Positions 5,154 to 52,050 of a DNA stretch of 53,811 nucleotides are shown here, in pieces. Both the position numbers and the translations under genes were made by a program. A model generated the notes under the pieces. That model worked only from the letters and a program-made list of their open reading frames with translations. It had not been told where the DNA came from and ran no database searches. Numbering within the stretch: the first letter of the stretch is position 1; every line of letters starts with the position of its first letter. This DNA is from Acidimicrobiia bacterium (GTDB lineage: Bacteria; Actinomycetota; Acidimicrobiia; Acidimicrobiales; Poriferisodalaceae), in contig JAJDZE010000044.1 in NCBI GenBank assembly GCA_022824805.1, forward strand, positions 1 through 53,811, read 5' to 3'.

Positions 5154-5200
5154 GGCGGCGACTCGACACCCAAGGTCGGCTCGATGCGCGCCAGACGCTC
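5138..5200 (-). pseudogene. 3' tail of a cassette coiled-coil gene (family of 22318-22815)
   Basis: Read on the minus strand this gives ERLARIEPTLGVESPPVQQL then stop. That nearly matches the C-terminus of the proteins at 22318, 23206, 24275 and 27361 (RLARIETTLGVESPPAQQP, stop), and the DNA after the stop (CTAGACAGCC-like) is also shared. Only the last 20 or so codons survive. It shows that the cassette family once extended, or was copied, to this side of the surface-protein island. Confidence 0.7.
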
Positions 5201-5369
5201 GGGCGGTCGGGCGCTCACTGAGCGTCGATCGGGGTGTTGATACAGGCGTCGGCTCGCCAGGAGAGCACGTCGTCGCTGCGCGCCAGACGCTCGGGCGGTC
5301 AGGCGCTCACTGAGCGTCGATCGGGGTGTTGATGTAGGCGTCGGCTCGCCAGGAGAGCACGTCGTCGCT
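5186..5369. repeat. 92-bp tandem duplication over the 3' end of a CWB2 gene
   Basis: Two head-to-tail copies, 5186-5277 and 5278-5369, differing at three positions. The right copy contains the last 21 codons and stop of the CWB2 gene ending at 5307. The left copy repeats those codons downstream of the stop. The unit also includes part of the coiled-coil remnant tail, so the duplication occurred after that junction formed. Confidence 0.85.
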
Positions 5370-8084
5370 GCTGTCCGACGACTTCACCGACAGGGTGGCC
5401 GAGAAGCCGCCGGCGCCGTAGGCGTCGGCGATGCCGACCCGCAGCGGCTCGACCGGGCCCGTGGCCGGCTGCGACGGCCGAGGGCTGTCATCGCTGATCG
5501 GCGGCGGCCCGTACTCGCGCGAGGCCAGCGTTCCCGACCGAAGCAGCGACGAGCCGCGCAGGTGCCACGAGCCGTCATGAAGCACGGCCTCGCCGTTGGC
5601 GGTGCCGACAAGCGTGCCGCTCTCGGTGGAAATCTCCCAGCTCGCGGAGAAGGTGTCGGGAACCCGGCCGGTGCCGCCCGACTGCTGGGCGGCCTCGCCC
5701 CGGAAGATCCGCACCAGGATGCGACTGTCGGCCACGGCATCAACGTAGTCGCCGAGCTGCACGCGCCCATTTCCCGAACCGCTGCGGAACAGCAGACGTG
5801 TCTGCCCGCCGCGTACCGGGTCGATGTGGCTGGGAATGCCGGTGACCGACGGCTGACCGGCCACGATCGGCGCTGTCAGCGCGAAGCGGCGTGCGGCGTC
5901 GCTGACCACCATGATCGAGTCGGAGGTGGCCCCGCCGGGCCCCACCGCACGCGCCAGCACCGGCGCGGTGATCTCGTCGGCGGGCCCGATCGACACGCAG
6001 GTCGGCGCACCGGTGCCCGCCGTCCTCGCGGTGCCGTCGGCGTCGACGAGGTATCGGCGGCCGGCAGGCAGCTCGCTGACCGCCGCAGGGCCGTCTCGCT
6101 CCACCAGCAGCCAGCGTGCATCGCGGTATGCGCCGCGAGGCGCGCACATCTTGAGGTGCTCTCCGGGACCGTCGAAGTACACCGGCGACATCGACAGCGT
6201 CGTGGCAAAGGCGCCGATGCCGAAGTCGAGGTTGCGGACCGACTGGATGCCGAACGGCGAGTACGGGTCGGGCGTATTCGCGCCCACCAGCACCGCGGGG
6301 TCGTTGTGGTCGTCGACGGCACCGCCGCTGAGCAGCGACGAGACCGTTCCCAGTGCCTGGTCGGTGAGCGTGGCGTCCGATCCGAACGCCACGGCGAAGC
6401 CCGGCGCCGGGCAGTCTCCGGCGGTCAGCGCCTCGGCATAGCGCCCCCGTTCCACGCGGGTGCTGCACTTCGACGACAACGAGAACGACTCGGTCAGGAA
6501 CGCCTCGACGCTGGCAGGCAGCCGGTCGGCACCGGCGCGCACCAAGATGATCGGAACCGCACTGCGCGTGGGCCGCCCCCGCTGCTGCGACCCTGCCCCG
6601 GCGCCGCCACCGGAACCGCCACCGTCGGAACCACCACCGGAACCGCCGCCAGCACCGGAACCGCCGCGAGCCACCACCGCAGGGTTCGCCACCGTGATCG
6701 GCGGCAGCATGCGAGCCGGCGCACCCAGTCCGGAAGCAGCGCTCGCCACGCCGCACCACGGACCGGCGCTCAGGATCTCAGCGCTGCCGCGGGCCGAACG
6801 GCCGCTGCCGGACGAGGCTGCGACGCACAGCATGGAACCGGCGAACCCGTCGCGCCCGGCCGAAGGCCACCAGCCGCCGAACTGCTTCGCCATCTCGATG
6901 CTGGTGGCGTAGCGATCCGGCCCGGCTACGCGAATGGCCTCGGCACGCGACAGCCGCTGTGCCTCGGCGAGGATCTCGGGAGATATCCGCGCGGTGCCGC
7001 CCAGCACGATGATGTTCTCGATGGGCAGCAGGCTGAGCGCTGCTGCTGTGGCAACCGGCAGCGCGTCGCTGCCGTCGTGCAGCAGCACCGGCACCTGCCA
7101 GTAGCTCGTCCACCAGCCCGACGCCAGCGCGTCGATGCCGTCGACACCGTCTGTCAGCACCACCGAGTCGGGCAGCACGCGGCAGGTGTCGGGCGCCGGG
7201 CGCCATTCCACCGCAGCGTTGGCCAAGAACCCCGAGGTCACCACTCCGTCCGATGTGGAGGAGTCGGCGCATTCGGCGGTGTCGGGCGGTGCCGGGCCGC
7301 CCACCAGCGCCAGCGCCACGGCCACAGCGGTTGCGTACCGGTCGCCGCCCCACGCACGGAACACCTCGGTGTACCCGATCGACACCAGCTCCGATTCGAC
7401 CTCCACAGGCACCGCCTGGGGGCCGCCCACGATGATCGCCTGGCGGGCGGTGGTGCATCCGCCCGAGCGCAGGTCGTGCGCTGCAAGCCGAGCCGAGAAC
7501 GACAGCGACGTCGCGCCGCTTCGCGTCGAGCGTGTGAGCAGCATCGGGGCTGCGAAGGTGTCGACGCGGGCGAAGCCGCCGGGCGGATCGAACAGCGGGT
7601 CGGCGGCTGCCACCCGCTCCACGTACGGCTCGCTCGAGCGCCCGGTGGGATCCGACAGCGCGGCGGCGGCGAGCGCATCGGCCACCGAGTCGCCGGCCAC
7701 CACGATGACCGATTTCGGGCACACGCCCGGCCCCCACCAGCCGGCTGCATCGCCCAGGCTGCGCACGCCGCCCGAGGTGGCGTCGGGGGAGTCATAGGGG
7801 AACCCGCCTTCGCCGCGCAACAAAAGCGACGCCGCCAGCGCCGTCTGATACGGATCGGCGCCCGAGACGCGCAGCGCGTTCGGCCACCCCTCGATCTGCG
7901 GCGACGCCAAGAACGATTGCGGCCATTGTGCGGGTGCAACCGGGCCGGCTGGCCGCGCGGCGGGCGCGAGCGCACCGGCCGACGCTCCCGCCACCACGCC
8001 TGCGATGAGCAGCAGCGCTGCAGACGCGCCGCGAAGCCTCCGGTGGGCGCGGCGCGTCGAGGTACCCCGACGCTGGAGAATCAC
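5307..8084 (-). CDS. CWB2-repeat surface protein coupled to ECF sigma factor
   Basis: A 925-residue exported protein. Residues 1-45 are a signal peptide (basic start, then ASAALLLIAGVVAGASAGA). Residues about 60-460 hold three CWB2-type units marked by RVSGADPYQTALAASLL, FRAWGGDRYATAVAVAL and IRVAGPDRYATSIEMAK. CWB2 domains anchor surface proteins to cell-wall polymers. Residues about 467-500 are a Gly/Ser linker (GGGSGGGSDGGGSGGG), followed by a C-terminal region of unknown fold. The GTG start at 8084 overlaps the stop of the sigma-factor gene (GTGA), so translation is probably coupled. Its architecture differs from the four upstream CWB2 paralogues: it has a linker and no FTVTFSDDV-type domain. 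Its exact role is unknown. Confidence 0.88.
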   Translation of the reverse strand: MILQRRGTSTRRAHRRLRGASAALLLIAGVVAGASAGALAPAARPAGPVAPAQWPQSFLASPQIEGWPNALRVSGADPYQTALAASLLLRGEGGFPYDSPDATSGGVRSLGDAAGWWGPGVCPKSVIVVAGDSVADALAAAALSDPTGRSSEPYVERVAAADPLFDPPGGFARVDTFAAPMLLTRSTRSGATSLSFSARLAAHDLRSGGCTTARQAIIVGGPQAVPVEVESELVSIGYTEVFRAWGGDRYATAVAVALALVGGPAPPDTAECADSSTSDGVVTSGFLANAAVEWRPAPDTCRVLPDSVVLTDGVDGIDALASGWWTSYWQVPVLLHDGSDALPVATAAALSLLPIENIIVLGGTARISPEILAEAQRLSRAEAIRVAGPDRYATSIEMAKQFGGWWPSAGRDGFAGSMLCVAASSGSGRSARGSAEILSAGPWCGVASAASGLGAPARMLPPITVANPAVVARGGSGAGGGSGGGSDGGGSGGGAGAGSQQRGRPTRSAVPIILVRAGADRLPASVEAFLTESFSLSSKCSTRVERGRYAEALTAGDCPAPGFAVAFGSDATLTDQALGTVSSLLSGGAVDDHNDPAVLVGANTPDPYSPFGIQSVRNLDFGIGAFATTLSMSPVYFDGPGEHLKMCAPRGAYRDARWLLVERDGPAAVSELPAGRRYLVDADGTARTAGTGAPTCVSIGPADEITAPVLARAVGPGGATSDSIMVVSDAARRFALTAPIVAGQPSVTGIPSHIDPVRGGQTRLLFRSGSGNGRVQLGDYVDAVADSRILVRIFRGEAAQQSGGTGRVPDTFSASWEISTESGTLVGTANGEAVLHDGSWHLRGSSLLRSGTLASREYGPPPISDDSPRPSQPATGPVEPLRVGIADAYGAGGFSATLSVKSSDSSDDVLSWRADAYINTPIDAQ

Positions 8085-21776: not shown

Positions 21777-21814
21777 ACAGACCCGTTCCGGCAAGTTCGC
21801 AAGCGCCCGAGCGC

Positions 21815-22192
21815 TCAGCCGATCACCCCAGCAGCGTCGAGCCAGATCGACACCACGGCGGTCAGACCGATGCCGGCAAGCCAATAGTGACGAACGCGGC
21901 TCTCGGCGCGGTCCTCGGCGCGCTGGGCCACCAAGGCATCGACCTTCCTGTCGAGACCGGTAACCCTCGTATCGAGGACGGAGACCTTCTCGTTGACCGC
22001 GGAGACCTTCTCGTCGACGGCGGCGAGGTCGTCCTTTGTGGCGAACCGTGCCAGCTCGCCGGTCAGGAACCCCTTGGTCACCAAGTCAGACAGCGGCGCA
22101 GGCGCGAGACACGACATCAAGTACTCCGCGCGGCGCTCGTCGAGCTGCTCACGGAACCAAGCGTAGAGCCGAGAACGGTCTTCTTCAGACAC
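21815..22192 (-). CDS. Cassette minus-strand protein: coiled coil with C-terminal membrane segment
   Basis: 125 residues from a GTG preceded by AGGAGT. The N-terminal part (SRLYAWFREQLDERRAEYLM) is helical. The middle is a heptad coiled coil (LAAVDEKVSAVNEKVSVLDT, VTGLDRKVDALVAQ). The C-terminus WLAGIGLTAVVSIWLDAAG is a single membrane segment, so it is a tail-anchored-like protein. The layout resembles DUF1640/CCDC90-like small coiled-coil membrane proteins, but that is only likeness. It is divergently transcribed from the plus-strand partner at 22318 across a conserved 125-bp region, so shared control is likely. Near-identical copy: 23729-24139. Confidence 0.7.
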   Translation of the reverse strand: MSEEDRSRLYAWFREQLDERRAEYLMSCLAPAPLSDLVTKGFLTGELARFATKDDLAAVDEKVSAVNEKVSVLDTRVTGLDRKVDALVAQRAEDRAESRVRHYWLAGIGLTAVVSIWLDAAGVIG

Positions 22193-22317
22193 AGCGGACT
22201 CCTCTCGGCAGCGGGGCGGCCGGCGCTGGGAGAAAATCGCTTGGCCGGGGTGTCGTGCCGGTCCTAGGTTGCCTCGCGAGCGCGCCGGCCAGGCACGCGT
22301 GAGAGCCGGGAGGCACT
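22193..22317. promoter_or_regulatory. Conserved divergent intergenic of cassette 1
   Basis: The block GGGAGAAAATCGCTTGGCCG to the plus-gene ribosome site is nearly unchanged at 23110-23205, 24186-24274 and 27264-27360, and partly at 28010-28050. This conservation exceeds that of the coding rods and suggests a functional promoter/operator or a recombination arm. It includes TCCTAGGTTGCCT and the GGGAGG ribosome site. Confidence 0.55.
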
Positions 22318-22815
22318 GTGGGTACTATCGCTGAGGTGACCGAAGACCGCCCATCGGCTGTTGCAAGCGACGCGGTCGCACAGCAGCCGGCCGCGTTGTC
22401 GACGGCGCGCGCTGCCGAACGGCGATCGCTGCTGGTGCCGGTGCTGAGCACGGCGTGCGCAGCACTGATCGCCGGCGTGCTCACAATGGCCGTGGTGGGC
22501 TTCAACACTCTGCGCGACGACATGCGCACCGAGATCGGGAGTGTGCGCGGCGAGATCGGCAGTGTGCGCGGCGAGATCGGGAGTGTGCGCGCCGAGATCG
22601 GGAGTGTGCGCGCCGAGATCGGAATGCTCCGCAACGACATGCACACCGAGATCGGGATGCTTGACGCCAAGATCGACACGCAGATCGGGATGTTCCGCGA
22701 CGACATGAACGCGAGGTTCGGCGAGGTCAACGCGATCTTGCTCGATCACGCCGAGCGCCTGGCGCGCATCGAGACGACCCTGGGCGTCGAGTCGCCGCCT
22801 GCACAGCAGCCCTAG
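22318..22815 (+). CDS. Cassette plus-strand protein: membrane anchor plus modular coiled-coil rod (4 heptads, 3 hendecads)
   Basis: 165 residues from a GTG after GGGAGG. Residues about 40-62 (VPVLSTACAALIAGVLTMAV) form one membrane segment. The rod that follows is made of four seven-residue units of the type EIGSVRG (22531-22614). Three eleven-residue units follow, of the types EIGMLRNDMHT, EIGMLDAKIDT and QIGMFRDDMNA (22615-22713). A shared tail closes it (RFGEVNAILLDHAERLARIE, ESPPAQQP). Heptads and hendecads are both coiled-coil periods. Function is unknown. Paralogues at 23206, 24275, 27361 and, more distant, 29135. Confidence 0.72.
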   Translation: MGTIAEVTEDRPSAVASDAVAQQPAALSTARAAERRSLLVPVLSTACAALIAGVLTMAVVGFNTLRDDMRTEIGSVRGEIGSVRGEIGSVRAEIGSVRAEIGMLRNDMHTEIGMLDAKIDTQIGMFRDDMNARFGEVNAILLDHAERLARIETTLGVESPPAQQP

Positions 22816-22819
22816 ACAG

Positions 22820-23017
22820 CCGCGGCGAGCAGGTCGGCGAGCGACTGCGACCAACCCGCCAGCCGCCACGATCTCCAACGCCAAAGCAACCGCCATCCCC
22901 ACCAGCCACGTGTGACGCCCGCGGTCTTCCTGACGGTCAGCCTCGCGCTGGGCGGCCGCTTCTTTGCGGTCGGCCTCACGGGCATCGACGAGCCAGATCG
23001 ACACCACGGCATTCCCG
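22820..23017 (-). pseudogene. Module M copy 2: fragment encoding charged helix and membrane segment
   Basis: Minus-strand frame VVSIWLVDAREADRKEAAAQ, READRQEDRGRHTWLVGMAV and ALALEIVAAGGLVAVA: a charged helix followed by a good membrane segment. No proper start or stop bounds it, and the frame reads on antisense into the cassette 1 gene. It shares the seam VVSIWL with the tail of the cassette minus-strand proteins, so it looks like a mosaic remnant of a related gene. Confidence 0.4.
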
Positions 23018-23691
23018 ACAGACCCGTTTCGGCAAGTTCGCGAGCGTCTGAGCGCTCAGCCGATCACCCCAGCAGCGTCGAGCCAGATCGACACCACAGC
23101 GGGGCGGCCGGCGCTGGGAGAAAATCGCTTGGCCGGGGTGTCGTGCCGGTTTTAGGTTGCCTCACAAGCGCGCCGGCCAGGTGCGCGTGAGAGCCGGGAG
23201 GCACTGTGGGTACTATCGCTGAAGTGACCGAGGATCGCCCATCGGCTGTCGCAAGCGACGCGGTCGGCCAGCAGCGAGCCGCGCGGTGCGCGCAGCGGGT
23301 TGGAGTTCGGCGGTCGCGGGTGGTGCCGGTGCTGAGCACGGGATGCGCGGCACTGATCGCCGGAGTGCTCACGATGGCCGTGGTGGGCTTCAACACACTG
23401 CGCGACGAGATCAGCAGCGTGCGCGGCGAGATCGGGAGTGTGCGCGCCGAGATCGGGATGCTCCGCGACGACATGCACACCGAGATCGGGAGTGTGCGCG
23501 GCGAGATCGGGATGCTCCGCGACGACATGCACACCGAGATCGGGATGCTGCGCAATGACATGAATGCGAGGTTCGCTCAAGTTGACGAGCGGTTCGGGGA
23601 GGTCAACGCGATCCTGCTCGATCACACCGAGCGTCTGACGCGCATCGAGACGACACAGAACGTCAAGTCGCCGCCCGCGCAGCAGCCCTGA
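23018..23691. repeat. Cassette 2 (minus-strand gene reduced to its last codons)
   Basis: Starts with the same block as cassette 1 (GACAGACCCGTTTCGGCAAG onward). After the VVSIWLDAAGVIG-coding tail it jumps straight to the conserved intergenic block at about 23100, so the body of the minus-strand gene is deleted. The plus gene is intact. Confidence 0.75.
23206..23691 (+). CDS. Cassette plus-strand protein, rod variant 2
   Basis: 161 residues from a GTG after GGGAGG. It shares the N-terminus (MGTIAEVTEDRPSAVASDAV) and membrane segment (VLSTGCAALIAGVLTMAVVG) with 22318. The rod order is two heptads, a hendecad (EIGMLRDDMHT), a heptad (EIGSVRG), two hendecads, then RFAQVDE and RFGEVNA. Heptads and hendecads are interleaved, unlike copy 1. 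The stretch after VGQQ reads RAARCAQRVGVRRSRV and differs from the other copies, as if locally scrambled by compensating indels. The common tail ends KSPPAQQP. Function is unknown. Confidence 0.7.
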   Translation: MGTIAEVTEDRPSAVASDAVGQQRAARCAQRVGVRRSRVVPVLSTGCAALIAGVLTMAVVGFNTLRDEISSVRGEIGSVRAEIGMLRDDMHTEIGSVRGEIGMLRDDMHTEIGMLRNDMNARFAQVDERFGEVNAILLDHTERLTRIETTQNVKSPPAQQP

Positions 23692-23728
23692 CAGACCCGT
23701 TTCGGCAAGTTCGCGAGCGCCTGAGCGC

Positions 23729-24139
23729 TCAGCCGATCACCCCAGCAGTGTCGAGCCAGATCGACACCACAGCGGTCAGACCGATGCCGGCAAGCCAATA
23801 GTGACGAACGCGGCTCGTCGCACGGTCCTCGGCGCGGTCCTCGGCGCGCTGGGCCACCAAGGCATCGACCTTCCTGTCGAGACCGGTAACCCTCGTATCG
23901 AGGACGGAGACCTTCTCGTTGACCGCGGAGACCTTCTCGTCGACGGCGGAGACCTTCTCGTCGACGGCGGCGAGGTCGTCCTTTGTGGCGAACCGTGCCA
24001 GCTCGCCGGTCAGGAACCCCTTGGTCACCAAGTCCGACAGCGGCGCAGGCGCGAGGCACGACATCAAGTACTCCGCGCGGCGCTCGTCGAGCTGCTCACG
24101 AAACCAAGCGTAGAGGCGAGAACGGTCTTCTTCAGACAC
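23729..24139 (-). CDS. Cassette minus-strand protein, longer copy
   Basis: 136 residues, almost identical to 21815-22192. It has one extra heptad (AAVDEKVSAVDEKVSAVNEK instead of one fewer repeat) and an extra EDRA before the membrane segment (RAEDRAEDRATSRVRHYWLA). The start is again GTG after AGGAGT. Length differences of 21 and 12 bp inside otherwise matching sequence show that repeat-unit slippage also affects this family member. One C-terminal membrane segment; function unknown. Confidence 0.7.
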   Translation of the reverse strand: MSEEDRSRLYAWFREQLDERRAEYLMSCLAPAPLSDLVTKGFLTGELARFATKDDLAAVDEKVSAVDEKVSAVNEKVSVLDTRVTGLDRKVDALVAQRAEDRAEDRATSRVRHYWLAGIGLTAVVSIWLDTAGVIG

Positions 24140-24274
24140 AGCGGACTCCTTTCAGCAGCGATCCGCTGCGCACAAGCCGGCGCTGGGAGAAAATCGCTTG
24201 GCCGGGGTGTCGCGCCGGTCCTAGGTTGCCTCGCGAGCGCGCCGGCCAGGCACGCGTGAGAGCCGGGAGGCACG

Positions 24275-24685
24275 GTGAGTACTATCGCTGAGGTGACCCA
24301 AGACCGCCCGTCGGCTGCCGCGCCCGACGCGGTCGCACAGCAGCCGGCCGCGTTGTCGACGGCGCGGGCCGCCGAGCGGCGATCGCTGCTGGTGCCGGTG
24401 CTGAGCACGGCGTGCGCAGCACTGATCGCCGGCGTGCTCACGATGGCCGTGGTGGGCTTCAACACTCTGCGCGACGACATCAGATCGCTCGACGCCAAGA
24501 TCGACACACAGATCGGCAGTGTGCGCGGCGAGATCGGGATGCTGCGCGACGACATGAACGCGAGGTTCGCGCAGGTGGACGAGCGGTTCGGGGAGGTCAA
24601 CGCGATCTTGCTCGATCACACCGAGCGTCTGGCGCGCATCGAGACGACCCAGAGCGTCGAGTCGCCGCCTGCACAGCAGCCCTAG
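24275..24685 (+). CDS. Cassette plus-strand protein, shortest rod
   Basis: 136 residues from GTG after GGGAGG. Same N-terminus (MSTIAEVTQDRPSAAAPDAV) and membrane segment as the other copies. The rod is reduced to DIRSLDAKIDT, QIGSVRG, EIGMLRDDMNA, RFAQVDE and RFGEVNA, then the common tail (ERLARIETTQSVESPPAQQP). It is 44 residues shorter than the copy at 27361 with an otherwise equal frame. Function is unknown. Confidence 0.7.
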   Translation: MSTIAEVTQDRPSAAAPDAVAQQPAALSTARAAERRSLLVPVLSTACAALIAGVLTMAVVGFNTLRDDIRSLDAKIDTQIGSVRGEIGMLRDDMNARFAQVDERFGEVNAILLDHTERLARIETTQSVESPPAQQP

Positions 24686-24807
24686 ACAGCTCGGTGAGCG
24701 ACTGCAACCAACCATGACAGCCTCCGAGTGCCAGTCGGCTGAACCCAAGCCTCAGTCTTCCGCCATCGTCGGGCGTAACGCCGAACCCCGGCGTTAGCGT
24801 CCCTTCG

Positions 24808-24930
24808 ATGCGCAGGGCCGTGTTGTCAGCGGCGGCGGCGGCATTGGTCGCTGCGCCCGTTCTCGGCCTGCCTGCGTCCGTCTCGGCTTCGACGTCGGCG
24901 AGTTCCGCTGACCTGGACTGGCGACCTTGA
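24808..24930 (+). pseudogene. Orphan signal-peptide fragment
   Basis: ATG at 24808 opens MRRAVLSAAAAALVAAPVLG followed by LPASVSASTSASSADLDW and a stop after 40 codons. The first 28 residues form a textbook Sec signal peptide with AxA-like cleavage, but no mature protein follows. It is probably the 5' stump of a secreted protein gene lost when this region was rearranged. A short real peptide cannot be excluded. The rest of 24686-24970 shows nothing else clear. Confidence 0.35.
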
Positions 24931-24973
24931 TCTGGGTTACATAGATCTCGCCACGCAGCCGCTGCTTGCGCGC

Positions 24974-25089
24974 AAGAGAATATTATGCAATCTTCTCTTC
25001 GCAAAGCCAGAAATCCGCCATCTAAAGAGAATATATTTCAATCTTCCTCAACAAACTGCCTAGACGTGAGTTGTGAGCGGAAGATTGAA
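24974..25089 (+). promoter_or_regulatory. Repeat-rich AT promoter/operator of the AlbA-type regulator
   Basis: Two 22-bp direct repeats (24974-24995 and 25025-25046, 18 of 22 identical) of the form AAGAGAATAT-N4-CAATCTTC, 51 bp apart. A perfect 11-bp inverted partner follows: TTCAATCTTCC at 25037-25047 against GGAAGATTGAA at 25079-25089. It sits just upstream of the start at 25122 in an unusually AT-rich island. It is likely an operator for the gene's own product (inference). Confidence 0.6.
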
Positions 25090-25121
25090 GAATCTTGCGT
25101 TCGTTGGCTAGAGTGACAGAC

Positions 25122-26804
25122 ATGGCGCGGCGGCAGCTTCAGCTCGCAGACATCGCCGACGATCTCGCGGCCGGCCAGTTCTGGGGCCTGTTCGGCGAGG
25201 TCGAGCACGAGACCCTCGACTTCAAGGGCGGACCCGGGGACAGCTTCAAGGAGCTGCTGCCCGCCATGGCCATGACCGACGGCGGGCTGGTGATCCTCGG
25301 CGTCAGCGATACCGACGGCGTGCGCGAGGTCATCGGCTGCCCGCTGAGCCAGCGTGTCCAGGACAGCATCACCCGATACGCCAACCAATGCGATGTCCCC
25401 GTCGAGCTCAAACCGTTCCGTGTCGACGGCGCGGAGCTCATCGCGGTGCAAGTCCCCCAGATCGGCGGCCGCATCGTCACCACACCCGACGGGCGGCTGC
25501 TTCGCCGCGTCGGCGGCGATTCCCAGCCGCTGGTGGGCGACGCGCTCGCTTCGTTCGTCCGAGACCGGTCCCGCCGCTCGGCAGAAGAAGAGCCGTTGAA
25601 CCGCCGATTCGACCCTGCCGAGTTCGACATCGACCTCGTCAACGCGGCGCTCGCGCGCAGCCGGCGTCCTTCTGCGGCCGAGGCAGACCTCCACAGCGCA
25701 CTCGTCGACCTGCATCTCGCCGAGCGGGCATCCAGCGGCGACATCGAGGCGACGACCGCAGCAGCGATTCTCTTCGCACGCGACCCGCGCCAATTCGTCG
25801 CCGGCGCCGCTGTGCAGCTCGTACGCCGAACAGGCACCGGCCCCAAAACCGGCCCCACCTCAGACCGACACGAGTGCTGGGGACCGCTGGAGGCCGTCTT
25901 CGGCTGCTGCGTCGAGTTCATCGACAAGCACACTCGCACCTACGAAGCGGTGTCGGGCCTGTTTCGCGAGCCCATCCCCGAATACCCCCATGCTGTGGTG
26001 CGCGAGGCACTGCTGAACGCGCTCGCGCACCGCGACTACGGCCGGGTAGGAACCACGATCGACGTCACCGTCTGGGACGACCGCATCGAGATCCGCAGCC
26101 CCGGCCCCCTCGCCGGCCACATCACCATCGACAACATGCGGCTCGAGCACTTCAGCCGCAACCGCCGTCTGATGAGGACGCTGCGCAGCTTGGGCCTCGT
26201 AGAGGAGTACGGAGAGGGAGTCGACCGCATGTTCCAAGAGATGGAATCACGCCTCATGCACCCTCCCGAATTCACCGCCACACCCGATTCGCTCACCGTG
26301 ACACTGCGCAGCCAGTTCCTGATCGATCTCGACGAGCAGGCATGGCTGCTCGCACTGGACCCATGGGCAGGCTCGGCCGCGCAGCGTCGCGTGCTCGTCG
26401 AGCTCCGACGGCGCGGCGAAGCCGCCAAGCGGCACCTCGCCGACGTGCTTCCGAACACCGACCTGGACGCCCTGCTCGACGACATGCGCCTGAGCGGACT
26501 CGTCGAACGCGTGGGCCGCGCCGGCGGCACGCAGTACCGACTGTCCAACGACCTCATCAGACGCGCCGGGACGCCGACCGGAGACAAGACGCTCGATCGC
26601 GCCACCAGGCTGCTGCAAGCAATCGAACACCACGGCAGCATCACCACGACAGAGGCGGCGAACCTGCTCGGCGTCGACCGGGCAGCAGCCCGCAAAATCC
26701 TCAACGACCTCACCGCCGCAGGCCAGACCCAAGCAGTCGGCAACACACGCGCACGCCGCTACTGCCCAGCCGCGAGCCCGCCCAGACGAACCACCCCCGC
26801 CTAG
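25122..26804 (+). CDS. AlbA_2 (Schlafen-like) and HATPase_c_4 domain putative regulator
   Basis: 560 residues from the ATG at 25122; an upstream in-frame start at 25095 is less likely. The N-terminal about 130 residues form an AlbA_2 domain (ETLDFKGGPGDSFKELLPAM and MTDGGLVILGVSD). The middle has an ATP-binding-type C-terminal part (AVVREALLNALAHRDYG, IEIRSPGPLAGHI, RNRRLMRTLRSLGLVEEYG) known from RecG-like putative regulators. The C-terminus has winged-helix segments (TTTEAANLLGVDRAAARKIL). Such proteins are annotated as transcriptional regulators and some occur in defence or mobile contexts. No partner gene is present. The AT-rich repeat region upstream and the terminator downstream make it a single-gene unit, possibly acquired. 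Confidence 0.85.
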   Translation: MARRQLQLADIADDLAAGQFWGLFGEVEHETLDFKGGPGDSFKELLPAMAMTDGGLVILGVSDTDGVREVIGCPLSQRVQDSITRYANQCDVPVELKPFRVDGAELIAVQVPQIGGRIVTTPDGRLLRRVGGDSQPLVGDALASFVRDRSRRSAEEEPLNRRFDPAEFDIDLVNAALARSRRPSAAEADLHSALVDLHLAERASSGDIEATTAAAILFARDPRQFVAGAAVQLVRRTGTGPKTGPTSDRHECWGPLEAVFGCCVEFIDKHTRTYEAVSGLFREPIPEYPHAVVREALLNALAHRDYGRVGTTIDVTVWDDRIEIRSPGPLAGHITIDNMRLEHFSRNRRLMRTLRSLGLVEEYGEGVDRMFQEMESRLMHPPEFTATPDSLTVTLRSQFLIDLDEQAWLLALDPWAGSAAQRRVLVELRRRGEAAKRHLADVLPNTDLDALLDDMRLSGLVERVGRAGGTQYRLSNDLIRRAGTPTGDKTLDRATRLLQAIEHHGSITTTEAANLLGVDRAAARKILNDLTAAGQTQAVGNTRARRYCPAASPPRRTTPA

Positions 26805-26828
26805 AGCCGACTCAAGACGGCAGACGCG

Positions 26829-26860
26829 AAGAACCCCGGGGCAGAAGCCCCGGAGTTCTC
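26829..26860 (+). terminator. Hairpin terminator after the AlbA-type gene
   Basis: GAACCCCGGGGC, loop AGAA, GCCCCGGAGTTC, then TCCTT: a 12-bp stem with one mismatch, 26 bp after the stop at 26804. Confidence 0.8.
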
Positions 26861-26946
26861 CTTGGTCTCGCCAGCCGGTCGGCTGGGTCAGCCGTCGATC
26901 AGGCGAAATCGCCTAGTCGTGTCCCTAGATGATTGGTTCCAAGGGG

Positions 26947-27153
26947 TTAGTGGTCGTAGTGGGTGAGTGATCGGGCGGGCTCGTTGCGGGCGGCGGGGCG
27001 CACGAACCCGCGCTCGGACTCATGGCCCAAAAGCGCCGAGATCACCGCCAAGGTGGCCAGCTCCGCGTCCGACAGCTTCGGGGCGAACCCCACCGGGGGC
27101 CGCCACGAGCTCTCGGCGCTGCTCGTGCAGGTCGCCCCCGAAGCAGGCCGCAT
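26947..27153 (-). pseudogene. N-terminal fragment of a DDE transposase
   Basis: Minus-strand frame with RPPVGFAPKLSDAELATLAV and ISALLGHESERGFVR, typical of the N-terminal region of IS4/IS982-like actinobacterial transposases (xLSDAELxTLAVxxALLG). The frame ends after 68 codons and no catalytic residues follow. The remainder of 26861-27171 shows no gene. Confidence 0.55.
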
Positions 27154-27171
27154 CGCGGTGCCTTCATTCCC

Positions 27172-27903
27172 GACAGACCCGTTTCGGCAAGTTCGCGAGC
27201 CGCCGAGCGCTCAGCCGATCACCCCAGCAGCGTCGAGCCAGATCGACACCACGCCGGGGCGGCCGGCGCCGGGCGAAAATCGCTTGGCCGGGGTGTCGCG
27301 CTGGTCCTAGGTTGCCTCGCGAGCGCGCCGGCCAGGCACGCGTGAGAGCCGGGAGGCACGGTGAGTACCATCGCTGAGGTGACCCAAGACCGCCCGCCGG
27401 CTGCCGCGCCCGACGCGGTCGCACCGCAGCCGGCCGCGTTGTCAACGGCGCGCGCTGCCGAACGGCGATCGCTGCTGGTGCCGGTGCTGAGCACGGCGTG
27501 CGCAGCACTGATCGCCGGCGTGCTCACGATGGCCGTGGTGGGCTTCAACACTCTGCGCGACGACATCCGCACCGAGATCGGGAGTGTGCGCGGCGAGATC
27601 GGGAGTGTGCGCGGCGAGATCGGGAGTGTGCGCGGCGAGATCGGAATGCTCCGCAACGACATGCACACCGAGATCGGGATGCTCCGCGACGACATGCACA
27701 CCGAGATCGGGATGCTTGACGCCAAGATCGACACGCAGATCGGGATGCTCCGCGACGACATGCGCACCGAGATCGGGATGCTGCGCTACGACATGAATGC
27801 GAGGTTCGGCGAGGTCAACGCGATCTTGCTCGATCACACCGAGCGTCTGGCGCGCATCGAGACGACCCAGAGCGTCAAGTCGCCGCCTGCACAGCAGCCC
27901 TAG
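27172..27903. repeat. Cassette 4 (minus-strand gene reduced to its tail)
   Basis: Same left block as cassette 2, then a direct jump to the conserved intergenic block near 27256, then an intact plus gene. It is separated from cassette 3 by the AlbA-type gene and the transposase fragment, which therefore lie inside the array. Confidence 0.75.
27361..27903 (+). CDS. Cassette plus-strand protein, longest rod (3 heptads, 5 hendecads)
   Basis: 180 residues from GTG after GGGAGG. Common N-terminus and membrane segment, then three EIGSVRG heptads (27574-27636) and five eleven-residue units (27637-27801). These vary as EIGMLRNDMHT, EIGMLRDDMHT, EIGMLDAKIDT, QIGMLRDDMRT and EIGMLRYDMNA. The common tail ends KSPPAQQP. 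Codons of adjacent units are nearly identical, which points to recent unit duplication. Function is unknown. Confidence 0.72.
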   Translation: MSTIAEVTQDRPPAAAPDAVAPQPAALSTARAAERRSLLVPVLSTACAALIAGVLTMAVVGFNTLRDDIRTEIGSVRGEIGSVRGEIGSVRGEIGMLRNDMHTEIGMLRDDMHTEIGMLDAKIDTQIGMLRDDMRTEIGMLRYDMNARFGEVNAILLDHTERLARIETTQSVKSPPAQQP

Positions 27904-27930
27904 ACAGCTCGGACGCAAGACGGCGGTATC

Positions 27931-28050
27931 GCGAGCGTCTGAGCGCTCAGCCGATCACCCCAGCAGCGTCGAGCCAGATCGACACCACGCCGGGGCGGCC
28001 GGCGCCGGGCGAAAATCGCTTGGCCGGGGTGTCGCGCTGGTCCTAGGTTG
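27931..28050. repeat. Cassette 5 stub
   Basis: Only the left block (CGCGAGCGTCTGAGCGCTCA onward, including the VVSIWLDAAGVIG-coding tail on the minus strand) and the first part of the conserved intergenic to GGTTGCCT. It then breaks into unrelated sequence. It lacks both genes. Confidence 0.75.
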
Positions 28051-28282
28051 CCTGTCGCCAGTCCGCGGTCGGCGGCGTCTTGGCCGAGAGCGCGACATGC
28101 CGGGTGCGTCGGGTCGTTCATCTCGTTGCGCCGACGGATGCGCTTGCGGTCGGTAGGACCCATCTGGCCGGCCATGGCCAACGGGTCGTCCACGACACGC
28201 AGCCGCACGTTGGGCCGGGATCGACCGTGGCTGCTACAGGGTGCCAGTCGGCTGACCGCCAAGAGTGAGAACCGAATCACGT
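28051..28282. other. Intergenic with an unassigned minus-strand frame
   Basis: A minus-strand frame (VRLRVVDDPLAMAGQMGPTD, RKRIRRRNEMNDPTHPA) has plausible protein composition but runs into the cassette 5 stub without its own end. It may be the 5' part of a gene cut by the cassette insertion. No family is recognised. Confidence 0.25.
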
Positions 28283-29134: not shown

Positions 29135-29644
29135 ATGTCCACACCGACCGAGACGACCGCCGCCATGATCGCACCGGGCGACACCACCCACGCCGTGACA
29201 GCCGAATCGGCAGCACCCGAACCGCAAGCCTCGGTGCCGCCGGCTGGCGCAGCTCAGTTCGAACCGCTCGCCGCAGAGCGCACCGAGCGCAGGACGGTGT
29301 CGCCCAACGCGGTGATCGGCGTGATGGGAGGGCTGATCGCCGCGTTGCTGGGGGGCATCTTCGCGCTGCTGGTGTGGCAGTTCGGCGCGCTGAACGACAG
29401 CATCGACCACCTCAGTGCCCGCATCGACAGCCAGGGCGCTGAACTCAGGGCCGAGATGGACACGCTGCGCACCGACCTGCGTTCCGAGATGGACACGCTG
29501 CGCACCGATCTGCGTTCCGAGATCGGCCAGTTGCGCACTGAGATGCAGGCCGGGTTCCGCAGCGTCAACGAGACGCTGCTGGACCACACCGACCGTCTCG
29601 CCCGACTCGAAGCCGCTCCCGCGAACCCAGTCCCAGAGCCCTAG
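29135..29644 (+). CDS. Membrane-anchored hendecad coiled-coil protein, distant relative of the cassette family
   Basis: 169 residues from the ATG at 29135 (MSTPTETTAAM); the frame is open further up. It is Pro/Ala-rich at the start, with a membrane segment at about 70-92 (VIGVMGGLIAALLGGIFALL). A rod follows with two near-identical eleven-residue units EMDTLRTDLRS and a third EIGQLRTEMQA. The tail FRSVNETLLDHTDRLARLE matches the cassette tail (FGEVNAILLDHTERLARIE). Same architecture but diverged sequence and no conserved upstream block, so it may be the parental gene. The 264 bp before it hold nothing clear. Confidence 0.7.
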   Translation: MSTPTETTAAMIAPGDTTHAVTAESAAPEPQASVPPAGAAQFEPLAAERTERRTVSPNAVIGVMGGLIAALLGGIFALLVWQFGALNDSIDHLSARIDSQGAELRAEMDTLRTDLRSEMDTLRTDLRSEIGQLRTEMQAGFRSVNETLLDHTDRLARLEAAPANPVPEP

Positions 29645-32304: not shown

Positions 32305-33207
32305 GTGGGTGAGTCCGAGGACGGTCTCGGTGATCTGCTGATGGCAGGCGATGCCAGCAGGGCGAAGGGCGAGGCGTACGCACGCCGGCTGGAAGCGATT
32401 GTGGCGGGTCATCGGGGCGAAGCGGCCGTGGCGGAGCGGTTGCTGGATGACGGCGATCCGGGCGTGCGGGCGGCGGCGCTCGGAGCGCTGGCTCGGTGCG
32501 GGACGCTGCAGGCGGAACAGGTGGGGCAGGCATTGAGGGACGAGGCAGCGACGGTGCGATGCCGGGCCGCGGAGCTGGCGCCGCCCGAAGTCGAGCTCGT
32601 GGGGCTGCTGAGCGATCCGGATGCGTCGGTTGTTGAGATGGCAGCAGCGGCTCTTGGCGAGCGCGACCGGGACTCTGGGCCAGTCAGGGAGCTGTGCCGG
32701 GTGGCCCGCAGCCATGACGATCCGCTGTGCCGGGAGAGCGCTGTGGCGGCGTTAGGCGCAATCGCCGCCGGCTTGGACGCCGAGGAGGATGCCCCGCACG
32801 AGGCTGCCGCCGACCCGGACGCCGAGGAGGATGCCCCGCACAAGGCTGCCGCCGACCCGGACGCCGAGGAGGATGCCCCGCACAAGGCTGCCGCCGGCTC
32901 GGACGCCGAGGAGGATGTCCCGCACGAGGCTGCCGCCGACCCGGAGGCCGGGCCGGTAACGACCCCCACCGCTACGCCAAGCGCGCAGGCCGGAGCGGGC
33001 GCGGCGCATGTCGCTGCCCGTGCGATGGCGCTCGAGGTGTTGCTGGCCGCCATGGACGACCGGCCGCAGATCCGACGCCGTGCGCTGCTCGGGCTGTACC
33101 AGTTCGACGACGACCGAGCTGCCGACGCCGTGCGGGCAGCAATCGAGGATCGAGACCGCCAGGTACGGGCCGTCGCCGGCGAACTGCTCGGCGTGCCCGT
33201 GCGCTGA
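32305..33207 (+). CDS. HEAT-repeat protein with internal 14-residue tandem repeats
   Basis: About 300 residues from a GTG at 32305; an ATG at 32341 is possible. Both ends are HEAT-like helical repeats (GDPGVRAAALGALARCG, DASVVEMAAAALGERD, RPQIRRRALLGLYQFDD, DRQVRAVAGELLG). Such repeats serve as protein-binding scaffolds. The middle (residues about 157-213) is replaced by four 14-residue acidic units DAEEDAPHEAAADP. This looks like a microsatellite-like expansion splitting the scaffold. It converges with the mreB-like gene, whose stop is 1 bp away. Confidence 0.75.
   Translation: MGESEDGLGDLLMAGDASRAKGEAYARRLEAIVAGHRGEAAVAERLLDDGDPGVRAAALGALARCGTLQAEQVGQALRDEAATVRCRAAELAPPEVELVGLLSDPDASVVEMAAAALGERDRDSGPVRELCRVARSHDDPLCRESAVAALGAIAAGLDAEEDAPHEAAADPDAEEDAPHKAAADPDAEEDAPHKAAAGSDAEEDVPHEAAADPEAGPVTTPTATPSAQAGAGAAHVAARAMALEVLLAAMDDRPQIRRRALLGLYQFDDDRAADAVRAAIEDRDRQVRAVAGELLGVPVR
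32776..32943. repeat. 42-bp tandem repeat, four units, inside HEAT gene
   Basis: Units at 32776, 32818, 32860 and 32902, in frame, differing by a few bases each (GAG/AAG and GCC/GTC changes). Confidence 0.95.
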
Positions 33208-51889: not shown

Positions 51890-52050
51890 AGCCGCTCGTG
51901 TTCGCTGCGCTCACGGGCCGCTCGGGCCACGGCTTCGCCTTGCGCTAGCCGCTCTTGTTCGCTGCGCTCACGGGCCGCTCGGGCCACGGCTTCGCCTTGC
52001 ACTAACCGCTCTTGTTCGCTGCGCTCACGGGCCGCTCGGGCCCGGGGCTC
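51890..52050. repeat. 57-bp tandem repeat, two full units and a partial third
   Basis: Units start at 51890, 51947 and 52004, with core CCGCTCTTGTTCGCTGCGCT, CACGGGCCGCTCGGGCCACG, GCTTCGCCTTG. It lies directly after the stop of the sigma-factor gene at 52061. Self-complementary parts (GCGGCCCG with CGGGCCGC) suggest hairpins in RNA. One more copy is at 47235-47284. Confidence 0.85.

Follow-up and report, generated by a model that had tools for sequence, protein, structure and literature searches.

Rod genes at the locus

We analyzed a 53,811-nt window, contig C163 of the 211 contigs in an Acidimicrobiia genome (GCA_022824805.1), and focused on an array at positions 21,777 to 28,050 in which plus-strand genes encode predicted membrane-anchored coiled-coil rods (the plus family). 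The evidence throughout is sequence comparison and predicted models. An initial annotation of the array had described four plus-strand genes with a common start, membrane helix, and tail, and with rods made of 21-bp and 33-bp units in different number and order. Both parts of that description were borne out. Gene c1 (22318..22815, 165 amino acids [aa]) encodes an N-terminus, a membrane helix, a rod of four heptads and three hendecads, and a conserved tail. The rod of c2 (23206..23691, 161 aa) interleaves heptads and hendecads, and its stretch right before the membrane helix has diverged. Gene c3 (24275..24685, 136 aa) has a minimal rod, and c4 (27361..27903, 180 aa) has three heptads and five hendecads. 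All four start with GTG. An unrelated plus-strand gene with AlbA/Schlafen-like, HATPase_c_4, and winged-helix domains (25122-26804) separates c3 from c4.

The four genes are joined by a block of about 300 nt, comprising the upstream region, N-terminus, and membrane helix, that is 88 to 94% identical across c1 to c4. Its upstream part (22212..22317, 23100..23205, 24169..24274, and 27255..27360, plus strand) also precedes copies on contigs C87, C90, and C106 of the same genome. By eye, we spotted TTGGCC-18-TAGGTT in this block, a possible candidate promoter. The family proved larger than the four genes first described. A divergent fifth member, c5 (29135..29644, plus strand), carries 33-bp units, and the genome holds at least eight further plus-type copies (one each on C87, C90, C106, C171, and C23 and three on C176), besides fragments.

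Rods change length by coil-compatible steps

The rods of c1 to c4 and of the C87, C90, and C106 copies parse wholly into heptads (EIGSVRG/RFAQVDE) and hendecads (EIGMLRDDMHT or EIGM+LDAKIDT); the unit order in c2 is H H K H K K, followed by RFAQVDE. Tandem Repeats Finder independently recovered arrays with periods of 21 and 33 bp. Over five rods, core residues are spaced only 3 or 4 apart, and 92 of the 93 are hydrophobic. The C106 copy (L060 1192-1767) combines five hendecads with four heptads of RFAQ type; its rod is longer than any other in the close group and has an Asn at one core position. AlphaFold2 (AF2), run for c4 on the family alignment, predicted an unbroken helix from upstream of the membrane segment through the end of the tail, with a predicted local distance difference test score of 95 to 98 in the rod. 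This continuous helix is consistent with a coiled-coil oligomer and is no proof of one.

We then asked how rod lengths differ between close relatives. This comparison used only spanning-tree pairs with at least 75% identity; a broader pairwise gap tally was set aside because distant pairs bring many small gaps that amount to alignment noise. The gaps measured 3, 4 (four times), 7 (five times), 11 (six times), 14, 15 (twice), 18, 19, 21, 22, 26, and 47 residues. In coiled-coil stutter arithmetic, 4 residues turn a heptad into a hendecad (7 + 4 = 11), and 15 and 18 are standard sums (PMC4786415). Coil-compatible lengths (4, 7, 11, 14, 15, 18, 21, and 22) accounted for 21 of the 25 gaps (binomial P of about 1e-6 versus 9/25). 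Individual pairs illustrate the rule. The C87 and C90 copies, 99% identical over membrane helix and rod, are exactly one hendecad apart in length; C176-type rods of genomes G000, G001, G002, and G009 are 97 to 99% identical and differ in length by 11 or 15 residues; and c5 differs from its G006 homologue by a single 11-residue gap. The idea that rods change by whole units with frame and core kept thus holds for the array, for further copies in this genome, and across species, and unit number changes, between copies and between genomes, while the amino acid sequence stays 97 to 99% identical.

DNA repeats and selection on the rods

At the DNA level, all 733 pairs of exact repeats of at least 9 nt in 11 rods are spaced by a multiple of 3, and the 12-mer spacings in window-type rods are sums of 21 and 33. 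Since every spacing is in frame, mispairing or recombination between these repeats would add or remove whole units. The repeats also exceed what the protein sequence demands. The c4 rod contains 70 pairs of identical 18-mers, compared with a mean of 2.2 and a maximum of 24 in 200 synonymous recodings, and long exact repeats lie well above synonymous recoding of the same protein in most of the 11 rods, an excess that indicates recent duplication or conversion. Exact repeats of at least 9 nt are absent from the c3 rod, and one C176 rod (C176c) shows little excess over the synonymous null.

Codon comparisons point to selection on the rods. Five pairs of C176-type rods from different genomes had a nonsynonymous rate (dN) of 0 to 0.012 at a synonymous rate (dS) of 0.04 to 0.24. 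The N-terminal segment in the same pairs was far less constrained than the rod, with a dN of 0.05 to 0.25. Among the window copies, rod dN/dS was about 0.2 to 0.4. The low rod dN shows that the rods behave, at the codon level, as protein under constraint.

Gene number varies across the genus

Every one of the 11 genus genomes carries the plus family, with 1 to 17 matches detected per genome. Each species is represented by one genome, and these are fragmented metagenome-assembled genomes (MAGs), so copy numbers are minima. No match was found in 26 other genomes sampled from the same taxonomic family, and clear relatives occur in G291, from a different family of the same order (E 2.7e-32). Close relatives of the window genes sit in two Acidimicrobiia MAGs with the sample prefix jk18. 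An Ircinia sponge-microbiome project uses this prefix (PMC9531527), so the window's own genome probably comes from a sponge-associated lineage too.

Genes have also come and gone. The end of C87 and the start of C90 share 141 identical overlapping bases, so the two copies are probably neighbors in a second array. In the c2 and c4 cassettes, a minus-strand gene of a second family (the partner family) has been cut down to its last bases, and this leftover 3' end is fused with the upstream block. At 27929..28053 (plus strand), the same combination of partner 3' remnant and upstream block stands without a rod gene and is 98% identical to 27193-27317. The syntenic locus in G007, where pyrE is 93% identical, carries two partner genes without a plus gene and a truncated c5; this c5 homologue (L124 4167-4372) is cut at both ends and adjoins pyrE. 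Contig C176 carries three divergent members, compared with two at a G007 locus with the same Cas-gene flank, and a degenerate fragment lies on C159. From the partner remnants, the orphan block, the G007 locus, and the three versus two copies, we read that gene number varies in addition to unit number.

The partner family is separate from the rods

Two intact partner genes, m1 (21815..22192, minus strand, 125 aa) and m3 (23729..24139, minus strand, 136 aa), lie divergently from c1 and c3. The alignment and an AF2 model describe a conserved head of three short helices, followed by one long helix that forms a variable stalk and runs into a C-terminal membrane anchor. The initial annotation had two cassettes keeping a partner that varies by a heptad. 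Both genes are present, and their difference is one heptad plus a further 4 residues. Remnants remain at 22861..22989 (minus strand), where only the stalk end and anchor of a second-type partner gene are left (profile match E 8.8e-8, profile positions 73 to 115), and inside the c2, c4, and 27929-28053 blocks. Partner-stalk gaps were coil compatible in 8 of 10 cases; the exceptions, 6 and 9 residues, are the hexad and nonad lengths treated in PMC4786415, where the nonad is tied to beta-layers in alpha/beta coiled coils. In one partner homologue (L093 1501-1944), a 9-residue insertion lies near RFVTKDFLTAELS.

The partner family is present in 10 of the 11 genus genomes. Only the window, C90, and one G005 locus have a partner gene within 5 kb of a plus gene, so a search for conserved co-occurrence, as the initial annotation had proposed, did not support a functional pair. 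On this neighborhood and on the G007 locus, where the minus genes stand alone, we rejected the partner as an obligatory pair. Basic residues border the partner anchor on the stalk side, and these positive-inside charges suggest that the stalk is cytoplasmic, on the opposite side of the membrane from the plus rod. The plus and minus genes are separate families, and we do not consider their pairing demonstrated.

Topology and envelope context

In 26 of 36 plus members, Lys and Arg are richer on the N-terminal side of the membrane helix, which would place the rod outside. Two CWB2 (PF04122) proteins are encoded directly upstream of the array. Among the 150 CWB2 matches listed, a cap that lowers observed and expected counts alike, at least 6 of 46 plus loci lie within 10 kb of a CWB2 gene (1.07 expected), as do at least 8 of 25 partner loci (0.64 expected). 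This context favors a cell-envelope role; our confidence is only moderate because most members lie elsewhere.

The three plus-type genes of the C176 subfamily (L064 3950-8999) adjoin Cas_GSU0053, Cas_GSU0054, and Cas3-like genes, and a G009 member likewise neighbors a Cas3-like gene. We rejected a defense function, as PADLOC returned only weak coiled-coil-like matches (E of about 0.002 to 0.005) and no Cas genes adjoin the window copies in the stretch that was examined. A phage origin was set aside as well: there was no match in phages or viral contigs (plasmids were not searched), and matches in PHROGs, to families without a known function, seem to reflect coiled-coil resemblance. We judged a match to TigB, a precursor of a ribosomally synthesized and posttranslationally modified peptide, to be repeat similarity (E 2.3e-7; 30.8 bits versus a cutoff of 70), and PDB matches to apolipoproteins and viral spikes to be generic helix similarity. 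No Pfam, NCBIfam, PADLOC, or PDB family claimed the plus proteins, and Foldseek found no significant match for either the plus or the partner model.

Comparison with known systems

FtsL/FtsB/DivIC-type proteins are type II proteins with a short inside N-terminus, one membrane helix, and an extracytoplasmic coiled coil, and the predicted topology of the plus family resembles theirs. They are single-copy division proteins without modular repeats, and Pfam and NCBIfam scans gave no match to these families for the plus proteins. The nearest precedent is RepMP1/DUF16 of Mycoplasma pneumoniae (MPN501, MPN524, MPN137, and MPN127), a set of about 20 functionally uncharacterized paralogues that have distal coiled coils and strain-variable 21-nt heptad units, for which slipped-strand mispairing and unequal crossover have been proposed (PMC3472980). 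The likeness lies in 21-nt coding repeats that vary in number, here between paralogues and species. RepMP1/DUF16 differs in that it is reported with heptad units only and has another conserved N-terminal element, and by Pfam it is not homologous: against PF01519 (cutoff, 40 bits), m1 scored 14.2 and m3 17.5 bits, and the plus proteins had no match.

Bdr proteins of Borrelia have an 11-residue periodicity, length variation among paralogues, and a C-terminal anchor. They are inner-membrane paralogues that contain repeat tracts (PMC4370689), a membrane repeat family analogous to the plus family. Unlike the plus family, which has its anchor before the rod and EIG-type units, they are plasmid-borne and unrelated in sequence, with KID/KIE repeats. 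The array is of a known kind; what is distinct here is that 7- and 11-residue units are mixed within a single rod.

MCUR1/CCDC90-type proteins have a head-neck-stalk-anchor architecture, and the partner, by alignment and AF2, shows an architecture of this kind with its anchor at the C-terminus. It resembles Tcar0761 (DUF3782) in its head, ATKDDL-like neck, variable stalk, and C-terminal membrane anchor, and Tcar0761 (5APZ) was the best PDB match of the partner profile, below significance (E 0.036). The CCDC90-like family PF07798 (cutoff, 33.5 bits) was missed by c2 (13.9), c4 (12.2), and c5 (18.8) and gave no match for the partner.

Interpretation of the array

We consider it fairly probable that the array is one product of birth-and-death evolution across the genus, acting on a family of envelope coiled-coil proteins whose rods are modular. 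The plus protein would be of type II: its short disordered N-terminus would lie inside the cell, a single membrane helix would follow, and the rod, pointing outward, would lead to a conserved LLDHTERLARIE tail. Genes would duplicate and vanish, and rods would grow or shrink in whole units of 7 or 11 residues, or by the 4 residues that separate the two, through slipped mispairing or unequal recombination between the short identical words that open each unit. Purifying selection would purge coil-breaking changes. The proteins would probably act as envelope spacers or tethers, extending to different depths in a CWB2-rich wall. The sequences themselves show the family, its unit grammar, the indel rule, selection on the rods, and the turnover of genes; the recombination step, topology, oligomerization, and envelope function are inferred from them. 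Several points weigh against this explanation. The family is known here from sequence and predicted models, and a promoter scan of the upstream block gave no consensus sigma-70 site. The length comparisons span paralogues and species, with one genome per species, and the binomial test assumes independent gaps and a uniform null. Rod dN is higher (0.04 to 0.07) in some cross-genome pairs. Topology comes from charge counts, which were tied in 7 of 36 members and reversed in 3, and 40 of the 46 plus loci are not near CWB2 genes among the matches listed.

A neutral form of birth and death, in which lengths of a dispensable repeat-rich family drift, selection removes misfolders, and length has no functional meaning, would account for the degenerate copies (the C159 fragment and the truncated c5 in G007), the partner genes decayed inside the array, and the range of copies detected per genome. 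We find it rather unlikely given a rod dN/dS of about 0 to 0.4 in the compared pairs and a family present in every genus genome. The initial annotation had envisaged a system for generating length variants. Such a contingency system, selected for surface rods of variable length in adhesion or in avoiding host or phage recognition, would keep the repeats homogeneous because variability itself is favored, in line with their identity above the synonymous null in most rods, the conserved upstream block beside varying unit counts, the multiple copies per genome, and the two relatives with the jk18 prefix. It is nonetheless improbable: no recombinase was seen beside the array, every repeat spacing keeps frame and so provides no on/off switch, the rod sequence is conserved rather than diversified, c3 lacks exact repeats of 9 nt or more, and recent duplication alone explains the repeat identity. 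A two-component complex with length-matched plus and minus rods would fit the divergent adjacency in two cassettes, the coil-compatible indels in both families, and the occurrence of both in most genus genomes. We think this highly unlikely, as the families are within 5 kb of each other at so few loci, the partner is lost from two of the four cassettes and occurs without plus genes at the syntenic G007 locus, and the two proteins are predicted on opposite sides of the membrane. The array looks like ordinary repeat recombination under selection, not a dedicated variation machine.

Because units with two coil periods can be exchanged in frame, the array offers a clean natural series of membrane-anchored rods in which to study what lengths and twists a coiled coil tolerates and how they are tuned. 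It also illustrates how repeats in coding DNA can limit recombination to lengths that suit the coil, and it marks an uncharacterized, putative envelope family in a lineage with sponge-microbiome relatives. As a speculation that we hold to be quite improbable, the genus may keep a surface family whose DNA modules for 7 and 11 residues share a single recombination word and are swapped, thereby tuning envelope rod length and supercoil twist (3.50 versus 3.67 residues per turn) and giving each population a graded set of rods.

Elsewhere in the window, further tandem repeats were found at 51890-52042 (57 bp, 2.7 copies, 96%), 32764-32950 (42 bp, 4.5 copies, 92%), and 5181-5371 (92 bp, 2.1 copies, 95%).

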